Assembly (NCBI RefSeq): GCF_008033235.1 | Contig: NZ_CP042432.1 | Location: forward strand, 1,240,001 to 1,304,000 | Origin: Anseongella ginsenosidimutans | GTDB taxonomy: Bacteria > Bacteroidota > Bacteroidia > Sphingobacteriales > Sphingobacteriaceae | Reading direction: 5' to 3' | Length of the DNA: 64,000 nt | Shown: positions 1 through 63,637 of the stretch, one piece after another | Numbering within the stretch: the stretch's first letter is position 1 | Layout: every line of letters starts with the position of its first letter | Translations under genes and position numbers: made by a program | Notes under the pieces: model-generated | Seen by the model: the letters and a program-made list of their open reading frames with translations, nothing else | Database searches by the model: none | Told to the model about the DNA's origin: nothing

Positions 1-1866
1 CCCGTCTTCTCCGATTGCCTCCATGTATTTGGATATAAGGCGGTCGCCAAATGCCCTGATCTTGCGCAGCGGTTCCTGGAGGTCATGAGACGCTACATAG
101 GCGAATTGTTCCAGCTCTCTGTTGGAGTTGTTCAGTTCTTCAATATGCTGTTTTAGCTCCTTTTCATAGTTTTTAACGTCGGTAATGTCCTGCGCCACGC
201 ACATACCTGCAAATATTTCCCCGTCTGTATTCCTGATAGGAACATTATGTACCTTGAAAAGCATGCCGCGCATCTTTACCTCCAGGCTCGATTCTTCCCC
301 TTCCAGGGTCCTCTCAAAAAGGGGAAGCAGGAGCTTCATGTAATATTTATCAAAGGTGTCGGCAAATTTTCTTCCTACGAAATCTTCCCGCTTCAGCTTC
401 AGCATGTCAAAGGCAGAGCCATCGGCGAGCGTGCAGTTAAGTTCCTTGTCAAAAAGAAAGATGAGCGAACTGGGCATGTTCTTGGCAAAACTGCGGTAAA
501 GACTCTCGCTGTGCTGGATCCGTTCCTCTGCCAGCTTACGCTCGGTAATATCGTCAAAGGTGATCACCAGGCCGTCCTGGAACCGGACGCCTGTTATATA
601 CAGCCATTTTGCAATAGCCGAACTGTTGTGCTGCAGGCGGAAGGAACTATTATTTTCCACCACGTCCACATACTTGTCAAAAAGCCCGTCTTTAAAATTA
701 TGAGAAAAGATCTCCGACATCCGGCTTCCCTCCACTGTCCGGTTCGGCGCCATATCATAATGCCCTATCACATACCTGCTTGCCGAGGGATTGGCAAGGA
801 TGATCGCGAAATCAATAATTTTGCCCTCTTCGTTACGAATGCTTCTGAAGGCGATGATCCCGCTGATAGAACTATTCAGTACGCCGTTAACCAAGTCTTC
901 GGCTTTCTTTCTTTCCGCAGCTTCTTCGTTCAGATTCCGGATCACCAGCCGCTCGGTTCTGTGCATTTGCTGGTAATTGAGGCTAATACCAAGGAAGGGA
1001 ATGAGGTAAGTAACGAATTTTTCGTAGTGGGCGATATTGAAATAATTATCAAAGTTTGCCGCTGACCCGTATACCATGCAGAGCTGGGCAAAAATTGCCG
1101 GAACAAGGCTTAGCAGCAGCATTTGTGAAAAAATAGAAGGATACTTCCGGATGAAGCGCGGCAAAATGAAGGCCGCCGAAACAAGGTAAAGGACCAGGGG
1201 AATGTTGTTCAGCAATTGCGTGATCCTTGGATTCTGGTTATATAATTCTGAAACGCCGTCTATCCGGAAGATAATATTGATCGTCAGGGCAGAAAGCAGG
1301 ACGAAAATCAGGCTGATGTATAAAATATAGGTATTGGCTTTTCGCTCGGTTTCCTGCCTGGTACGGAGCTGGGAGCTGACAAGAAAAATGCCGGTACCCA
1401 TCATCAGGATCAGGGCATGATAGCAGCGACTGATAAGCCAGCTGAAATTATCAATGTTCCCTGACCAGTCGGGCCCAACTGACACGAGCCTTGCGGAAAC
1501 CAATACGTGAAAAACGTCTAGCATTCCGGCGCAGAAAAGGGCAACCCCGATGATTGGGGTGGAAATATCCTTTTTCATTCCGTATTCCACGAAACAAAGG
1601 ATGGCGGTAAGCAGCGCTGTGATGATAGAGATCAGTTCCAGGATCACATGAATGAAATTGCCCCGGAGAAAGCGGTGAACAATAGCTTGCTGGCTCTCAT
1701 AAACCAATTCTCCAACCTGTTCAAAGACCGGGTACAGGTTGACAATTCCGAAATCAACGCCAAGTAAATTCAACAGCAAGGGCAGCAGGCAGGCGAGCAG
1801 GGTAAGCGCCACGAATTGCCAGGGAAGCCTGTATGCCTGTTTTTCCAGAAAACGCGTTAACACCAT
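1..1866 (-). CDS. Membrane-bound PAS sensor histidine kinase, C-terminus cut by window edge
   Basis: Translating the minus strand from the ATG at 1866 gives 622 open codons running off the left edge. Residues 1 to about 300 hold some seven or eight hydrophobic segments, resembling a MASE3-type sensor domain. Two PAS-like regions follow (about 330-450 and 465-590), each ending in a D-I-T-E/D-I-T-D type linker, then the start of a HisKA domain with the phospho-acceptor His594 in the box SHDLQEP. The ATP-binding domain lies outside the window. The gene follows the sigma-54 response regulator by 14 bases on the same strand, so the two probably form one two-component system. The signal is unknown. 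The family call is from motifs; the MASE3 label is tentative. Confidence 0.88.
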   Translation of the reverse strand, partial: MVLTRFLEKQAYRLPWQFVALTLLACLLPLLLNLLGVDFGIVNLYPVFEQVGELVYESQQAIVHRFLRGNFIHVILELISIITALLTAILCFVEYGMKKDISTPIIGVALFCAGMLDVFHVLVSARLVSVGPDWSGNIDNFSWLISRCYHALILMMGTGIFLVSSQLRTRQETERKANTYILYISLIFVLLSALTINIIFRIDGVSELYNQNPRITQLLNNIPLVLYLVSAAFILPRFIRKYPSIFSQMLLLSLVPAIFAQLCMVYGSAANFDNYFNIAHYEKFVTYLIPFLGISLNYQQMHRTERLVIRNLNEEAAERKKAEDLVNGVLNSSISGIIAFRSIRNEEGKIIDFAIILANPSASRYVIGHYDMAPNRTVEGSRMSEIFSHNFKDGLFDKYVDVVENNSSFRLQHNSSAIAKWLYITGVRFQDGLVITFDDITERKLAEERIQHSESLYRSFAKNMPSSLIFLFDKELNCTLADGSAFDMLKLKREDFVGRKFADTFDKYYMKLLLPLFERTLEGEESSLEVKMRGMLFKVHNVPIRNTDGEIFAGMCVAQDITDVKNYEKELKQHIEELNNSNRELEQFAYVASHDLQEPLRKIRAFGDRLISKYMEAIGEDG

Positions 1867-62408: not shown

Positions 62409-62900
62409 ATGATCTCGAATAAAATTTTAACCAGTATCCTGCTTTCTGCTTCAATTCTTGTATTGTCCGCATGCAACAATAAAAAAAATGCAGATAGTCC
62501 GGATAATGAAACAACCCTGACAGCCACCGCTGCATTAGATGCCGTCCAGGAAACAGCGGAAGTGAATTCTGAGGGCGCCGGTAGTTTCGAGGGTACGCTT
62601 GACACAGCAACCGGGGAATTTACTTTTAAGCTGGAGTGGAGCGGTCTTACCGGCCCGCCTTCCATGATGCATTTTCACGGCCCTGCAGATCCCGGCGCTG
62701 ACGCGGGGGTAAAGATCGGAATTACCGATTTCCCGGCGGAAGCCGCTGGTTCGGTAAGCCAGACAGTAACTGTTGAAGAAGCCGACCGGGCGGACCTGCT
62801 TGCCGGCAAATGGTATGTGAACATTCATACCGACGCGTACGGCGCCGGCGAGATCAGGGGACAGGTAGAATTTACGAACAGCGGTGGTGCAGCTCAATAA
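62409..62900 (+). CDS. CHRD domain lipoprotein
   Basis: A 163-residue protein with a lipoprotein signal (SASILVLSAC), a polar linker, and a CHRD domain: LTATAALDAVQE, FKLEWSGLTGPPSMMHFHGPADPG, and the WYVNIHTDAYGAGEIRGQV end. Often metal-binding or extracellular structural. Function unassigned. Confidence 0.9.
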   Translation: MISNKILTSILLSASILVLSACNNKKNADSPDNETTLTATAALDAVQETAEVNSEGAGSFEGTLDTATGEFTFKLEWSGLTGPPSMMHFHGPADPGADAGVKIGITDFPAEAAGSVSQTVTVEEADRADLLAGKWYVNIHTDAYGAGEIRGQVEFTNSGGAAQ

Positions 62901-62940: not shown

Positions 62941-62970
62941 TTGACATCTAAGCGAAAATTGCTAACTTAG
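62941..62970 (+). promoter_or_regulatory. Possible promoter of the 62975-63042 transcript
   Basis: TTG at 62941-62943, 19 bases, TAACTTAG at 62963-62970 (one mismatch to TAnnTTTG). TTGACA at 62941 is also a sigma-70-like -35. The AATTACTT/AAGTAATT inverted repeat at 62912-62942 overlaps it and may be an operator. Confidence 0.4.
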
Positions 62971-62974
62971 CTGT

Positions 62975-63042
62975 TGCCCACCCAAGGGCATGTTTTTCAT
63001 AGGTAGATGTGGGTCTGGCTACGCAAGTAGCCGGACCTTTTT
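62975..63042 (+). ncRNA. Candidate structured leader or small RNA ending in a strong terminator
   Basis: Two hairpins: TGCCC/GGGCA with loop ACCCAA (62975-62990) followed by T5, then an 11-bp stem with GCAA tetraloop (63012-63037) and T5 (63038-63042). The loop bases ACCCA can pair with TGGGT at 63010-63014 to form an H-type pseudoknot that would break into the terminator stem. Either an attenuator for the methyltransferase at 63128, an sRNA, or the terminator of the CHRD gene. I recognise no known class. Confidence 0.5.
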
Positions 63043-63127: not shown

Positions 63128-63637
63128 ATGACCCTTGATGAAGCCAGGAAGTTAATAGCCGTTCCGGCACTCCATGCGGGCGGCCCCCAGGAATGGGCGG
63201 ATCTGGGCTGCGGACCCGGTTTGTTCAGCCGCGCCCTTTTAAGCCTTCTGCCGGACGCAAGTCGTATTCACGCGGTGGATAACCGGTTTTATGATTTCGA
63301 AGAAGCGGGAATACAGTTCATCAAAGCCGATTTTGAACAGGATGTCCTTCCGCTTCCAGCCCTGAACGGGATCATGATGGCAAATTCCCTGCATTTCGTT
63401 AACAATAAATTGCGCCTTTTACGGAAGCTTAAAATGCAGTTGAGGCCGGGAAGTATCTTTATCCTGGTAGAGTATGACAAAGCCTGGCCAAATCCCTGGG
63501 TGCCTTACCCGCTGAAGTTTTCTTCTGCCGGAAAATTATTCCAGGAGGCAGGCTTGGGCCCGCTGGAAAAGATCGCTGAGCGGAAGTCTGTTTACAGCCG
63601 GGCGAAGATCTATTCAGCCTGGTGCCGGGTGGGCTGA
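63128..63637 (+). CDS. Class I SAM-dependent methyltransferase
   Basis: A 169-residue Rossmann-type methyltransferase: motif I WADLGCGPGLFSRALL, acidic end of strand 2 in IHAVDNRFYD, motif IV-like IMMANSLHFVNN. It is shorter than many family members but has a complete core. Substrate unknown. It lies 86 bases after the terminator-bearing structure. Confidence 0.88.
   Translation: MTLDEARKLIAVPALHAGGPQEWADLGCGPGLFSRALLSLLPDASRIHAVDNRFYDFEEAGIQFIKADFEQDVLPLPALNGIMMANSLHFVNNKLRLLRKLKMQLRPGSIFILVEYDKAWPNPWVPYPLKFSSAGKLFQEAGLGPLEKIAERKSVYSRAKIYSAWCRVG

Follow-up and report, generated by a model that had tools for sequence, protein, structure and literature searches.

An unannotated, FopS-like small-RNA gene is nearly universal in the Sphingobacteriaceae

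Whether the short intergenic segment between a CHRD-domain gene and a methyltransferase gene of Anseongella ginsenosidimutans is a switch controlling the gene behind it, or a gene in its own right, is the question raised by this locus. Within the window, i.e. the whole 64,000-nt stretch of DNA that was analysed, the earlier note had placed a promoter-like sequence, a hairpin and a terminator at 62941-63042, and all three were confirmed there (Table 1). The promoter boxes are separated by a 16-base gap (between 62946 and 62963), and judged by its letters TAACTTAG is best read as a Bacteroidota-type TAnnTTTG-like −7 box. The RNA was predicted to fold much more stably than its shuffles (z = −4.3, with 0/200 shuffles as good), leaving the presumed seed mostly unpaired, while comparison of the 64-kb window with Rfam 15 yielded no riboswitch or other RNA family above the gathering score.

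Table 1. Features of the small-RNA locus and its neighbours, in window coordinates
Feature	Position	Strand	Description and basis
Promoter	62941..62970	+	TTGACA at 62941-62946 (−33 region) and TAACTTAG at 62963-62970 (−7 box); read directly
Small RNA, ~68 nt	about 62975..63042	+	5′ end inferred from the promoter; sister-species identity, covariance model, own-genome copies
5′ hairpin UGCCC/GGGCA	62975..62990	+	5 pairs, loop ACCCAA; compensatory stem changes in relatives
Single-stranded core AUGUUUUUCAUAGGUAGAUGUGGG, presumed seed	62990..63013	+	Invariance; alignment with the Rfam FopS 5′ seed
Rho-independent terminator	63011..63042	+	12-pair stem, GCAA loop, U run; terminator scan, compensatory changes
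Upstream neighbour, CHRD-domain lipoprotein-like gene	62409..62900	+	Pfam CHRD, 4e-24; context only
Downstream neighbour, class I SAM methyltransferase gene	63128..63637	+	Pfam Methyltransf_11, 6.5e-7; context only

The same sRNA region was found in the nearest relative, an Anseongella MAG (contig L034, relative G001), and a pair-wise comparison of the two delimited the element. The RNA is 98.5% identical between them, versus 76.9% for the promoter region, where TTGACA and CTTAGCTGT are kept, 69.5% for the CHRD gene, 67.8% for the methyltransferase gene and only 20% for the stretch from the terminator to the methyltransferase start; thus, the conserved unit ends at the terminator. Because a 68-nt block conserved at 98.5% lies between a promoter and a terminator of its own, with both sides diverged, we favour as the likely explanation an independently transcribed intergenic sRNA of ~68 nt, which would act in trans as an antisense RNA on translation-initiation regions in a FopS-like manner.

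Three copies in all are carried by the 4.32-Mb genome (one contig), one of the two further copies being identical over the 39/39 nt of the core and the other 79% identical over 82 nt. Of 60 relatives searched at first, 30 had matches, every one in the window's own family, although the match in G012 is a gene start that resembles a target site rather than an RNA copy; the genera named by one exact genome scan were Anseongella, Solitalea, Sphingobacterium, Parapedobacter and Desertivirga, which makes the family Sphingobacteriaceae in a broad sense. The covariance model matched 185 of 201 sampled family genomes, each with 1–11 and mostly 1–2 copies, whereas a draw from the whole class added a single match from another family (G226). 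Since two further copies reside in the own genome and nearly the whole family sample bears it, the element is more than a chance arrangement, and the short sRNA that the earlier note had entertained as an alternative gains support from this conserved, self-contained unit. No match was obtained by searching plasmids, and the literature search found neither the core sequence nor any work on sRNAs of Sphingobacteriaceae. The element is a self-contained and unannotated small-RNA gene, belonging to a near-universal sRNA gene family of one bacterial family that is absent from Rfam. As for copy arrangement, contig L019 bears two tandem copies ~300 nt apart (near 1477-1547 and 1780-1852, minus strand), and 11 copies were counted in relative G031, several clustered on one contig.

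The anatomy of the RNA was drawn from 34 to 58 copies, with core invariance taken from a 34-sequence alignment and the hairpin, promoter and loop counts from 54 hairpin-bearing copies. Upstream of the hairpin, 41 of the 54 have an exact TAnnTTTG box, a number that rises to 49 when one mismatch is allowed. The 5′ stem covaries among relatives (UGCCCU/AGGGCA, UGCAC/GUGCA, UGUCCU/AGGACA, UGCCUU/AAGGCA and UACCCU/AGGGUA) and its loop is free, i.e. ACCCAA in the own genome and CCCAA, GCAA, GAAA, GUAA, UUCG or others elsewhere, mostly CCCAA or small tetraloops. In the terminator helix, compensatory changes were observed at 10 of 11 modelled pairs, with 94% of cells paired, and the covariation of the structure was reached by no shuffle. 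Between the two helices lies the single-stranded, nearly invariant core (consensus AUGUUUUUCAUAGGUAGAUGURGG), 21 bases of which, AUGUUUUUCAUAGGUAGAUGU, showed zero variation in the 34 aligned copies; rare core variants occur in a few diverged copies outside that alignment. Within the core, UUUUUCAU is an anti-start-codon sequence complementary to AUGAAAAA, and the entire core is complementary to ACAUCUACCUAUGAAAAACAU.

The earlier note's main proposal was a pseudoknot-controlled terminator upstream of the methyltransferase gene, that is, a cis-acting attenuator or riboswitch whose hairpin loop pairs with the left arm of the terminator and controls read-through into the methyltransferase gene, or into ubiX at the ancestral locus. 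Pseudoknot attenuators and riboswitches, e.g. preQ1-I, form the comparison class, and the window copy resembles them in that its loop ACCCA is able to pair with UGGGU of the terminator arm. However, pairing with UGGGU requires a loop containing ACCC, and four or more contiguous pairs between loop and tail can form in just 13 of the 54 hairpin-bearing copies; the loop pairing, whose conservation in homologous loci the earlier note had itself taken as the measure of such a switch, is not conserved, and the pseudoknot fails by that measure. The genomic contexts bear on both sides. ubiX adjoins 48 of 68 sampled loci, the typical pattern across genera being one orthologous copy beside it, and most commonly the RNA lies a short way upstream of a co-directional ubiX, which often begins just ~25 nt after the terminator, as an attenuator might have it. 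Against this, the remaining sampled loci, the window copy included, adjoin other or convergent genes, extra copies have unrelated or convergent neighbours, and several genomes have kept the RNA and its upstream ankyrin-repeat neighbour while ubiX was not detected downstream, so the 68 loci present no consistent downstream gene such as a riboswitch or attenuator would need. Nor did the locus itself give any sign that the RNA controls the methyltransferase gene, the gap from terminator to gene being unconserved; Rfam offers no riboswitch match, and beyond the invariant core there is no space for a ligand-binding domain. Unlike the pseudoknot riboswitches, the element thus has neither a conserved loop pairing nor a fixed downstream gene, and its conserved unit stops at the terminator. 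The methyltransferase switch was rejected on the non-conservation of loop and spacer, and we regard cis-acting control, ubiX included, as quite improbable; what stands of the earlier interpretation is the sRNA, while the methyltransferase attenuator or riboswitch falls with the variable loop and spacer and with the copies in other contexts.

To which known RNAs the sRNA is related was judged by comparison with 4227 Rfam families. FopS (RF04319) scored 19.2 bits (E 0.28) for an 81-base stretch versus its Rfam gathering cut-off of 56 bits, and the element is FopS-like and not an Rfam FopS member; the weak match is full length, with seed aligned on seed. The weak Rfam matches included no Bacteroidota sRNA other than FopS, and those to sbrA and suhB were set aside as terminator-driven. 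FopS is a paralogous sRNA family of Bacteroidaceae, 65-70 nt long in B. thetaiotaomicron, where a sigma-ABfr promoter is followed by a seed in the single-stranded 5′ part and then by a terminator; it represses translation of the sugar-importer mRNA susC at the start codon and is a major ligand of RbpB, an RRM-1 protein acting as antagonist (PMC11697453). The present RNA is like it in size, in its mostly intergenic location, in having several paralogs per genome (three in the own genome), in its rho-independent terminator and in its TAnnTTTG-type (sigma-ABfr) promoter. FopS genes from other families of the class are laid out as TAnnTTTG-CAATG-TGTTTTTCATAGTATTAGAT-linker-terminator, and the Sphingobacteriaceae RNA as TAnnTTTG-TAATG-[hairpin]-TGTTTTTCATAGGTAGAT-terminator. 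The core resembles the R1 seed of FopS, TGTTTTTCATAG..TAGAT, which faces start codons: TGTTTTTCATAG and TAGAT are common to both, with two bases fewer between them here. With the shared UUUUUCAU held fixed, the bases 3′ of it resembled f33-type FopS better than shuffles did (p 0.006), while the flank resemblance to GGTATTAGAT-type FopS was less clear (p 0.06). Our own R1 model also ranked FopS loci first, but these had been picked with the seed pattern and so are not independent evidence.

The two families differ as well. Instead of a single-stranded 5′ end and one terminator hairpin, the Sphingobacteriaceae RNA has an extra covarying hairpin between transcription start and seed, which is a new feature relative to FopS; the linker from seed to terminator is nearly absent, no preference for SusC starts was seen in the own genome, and many of the genomes lack an RRM-1 partner. 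Common descent with FopS is likely but falls short of proof, since the two seeds are directed at one and the same start-codon motif. A second comparable RNA, GibS of Bacteroides thetaiotaomicron, has the R1 seed in common with FopS and represses mRNAs at translation-initiation regions (PMC7366714); our RNA has a seed resembling R1 and would act at such regions too, whereas GibS is ~145 nt long and is a single gene with a second seed, R2, and a non-canonical promoter.

Related sequences were also observed beyond these families. The FopS core TTTTTCATGGTATTAGAT was present in 44 viral contigs (IMG/VR, L222-L265), often with terminator-like sequence behind it, which suggests that sRNAs of the FopS type are common in phages; a single phage is mentioned in the FopS paper (PMC11697453). 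Another viral contig, L217 (IMGVR_UViG_3300003321_000307), has near 1926-1942 on the minus strand the Sphingobacteriaceae-type seed TTTTTCATAGGTAGATGTAG, then a linker and a terminator; as the 5′ hairpin is lacking, its layout is between those of the two families. In a genome of another family, L285 (G419:C46:78189-78242) has TTTTTCATAGGTTTAGAT and a terminator, its seed being intermediate between those of FopS and the Sphingobacteriaceae RNA.

Three further explanations of the element were weighed. It might be a protein-binding RNA, a sponge or scaffold for RRM-1 or another RNA-binding protein, whose core would be a protein site rather than a seed. The near-invariance of the core across genera exceeds what target variation would suggest, the related FopS binds RbpB as noted above, and an RRM-1 protein is encoded in the own genome; among G000-G036, moreover, RRM-1 was present more often in genomes with several copies (9/12) than in the others (5/19, p 0.012). 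Yet that link is gone once small genomes are removed (p 0.21), genome size being a confounder, and a start-codon motif has its exact complement in the core. Of 31 family genomes with the sRNA, no more than 14 have RRM-1 and the other 17 lack it, so RbpB-like help would not be obligatory. We consider the protein-site reading unlikely. More improbable still, and about on a par with cis-acting control if not slightly below it, is a mobile or selfish repeat (REP-like or phage-borne) that plays no part in regulation: it would fit the dispersed copies, up to 11 per genome, the FopS core of the 44 viral contigs and the core-plus-terminator element in one more, but not the single orthologous copy that typically sits beside ubiX across genera with promoter and terminator, nor a structure preserved by compensatory changes. 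That the invariant core begins with AUG raises a small ORF in a leader transcript (AUG UUU UUC AUA GGU AGA UGU ..., MFFIGRC...), which is scarcely credible: the coding reading was rejected for want of any synonymous change in the 34 copies, and besides, diverged copies no longer have the AUG, and where the frame stops, within the terminator or beyond it, varies.

Candidate target sites at gene starts were sought in an 800-kb sample of the own genome with 1011 candidate starts. The strongest predicted duplex, an outlier among these at −26.2 kcal/mol, spans the start codon of a membrane-fusion gene of the hlyD type, behind which a C39-peptidase ABC transporter gene follows; it comprises 20 consecutive pairs, two of them G-U, and none of 5000 tail-shuffled seeds was as good at this site. 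The sister-species ortholog (protein 53% identical) is also predicted to pair at its start (−22.1), which 3.6% of shuffles match. By these modelled duplexes the HlyD-type exporter gene would be the top candidate target, one candidate and not a regulon: start regions overall were not enriched for complementarity, shuffled seeds doing at least as well on the best 20 of the 1011 starts in the 800-kb sample. Targeting of SusC genes at large, as by FopS, found no support in the own genome (29 susC starts versus background, p 0.18), one susC start, L162, giving a duplex of −20.0; the 4.3-Mb genome has 56 SusC/RagA-type genes, a large polysaccharide-import repertoire. Very long complementarity sites were rare in all genomes, and what such searches turned up in the relatives was for the most part additional copies of the sRNA, besides isolated genes here and there. 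At L131 / L033 (G012:C10:104529), a lipoprotein-like gene begins with CACCTACCTATGAAAAACAT, which comes close to a perfect target site, although no copy of the RNA was found in G012.

From the locus and its relatives we infer transcription, antisense action and translational repression as follows. A vegetative (sigma-ABfr-type) promoter would start the RNA at the hairpin and the strong terminator would end it; the 5′ hairpin may cap the RNA and present the long single-stranded seed AUGUUUUUCAUAGGUAGAUGU, which would pair with ACAUCUACCUAUGAAAAACAU-like translation-initiation regions and block their start codons, so that genes with ACCUAUGAAAAA-like starts would be those repressed. By analogy with FopS, the RNA is probably a trans-acting antisense regulator of translation. 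A wider proposal, which we put forward tentatively and at somewhat less than even odds, is that this is a nearly family-wide core sRNA, built of a 5′ cap hairpin and an invariant 21-nt seed, that has common ancestry with Bacteroides FopS; the start-codon-targeting seed would then be old in Bacteroidota and, outside the gut, might regulate other envelope and export genes, e.g. HlyD/C39 peptide exporters, often without RRM-1.

Knowledge of Bacteroidota sRNAs comes largely from gut Bacteroides. Here, a compact and nearly universal sRNA is found in a large environmental family, and its seed ties that family to FopS. The near-invariance of the seed makes a clear testable prediction, and these soil and water species are tractable for studying how translation is regulated without Hfq in this phylum.
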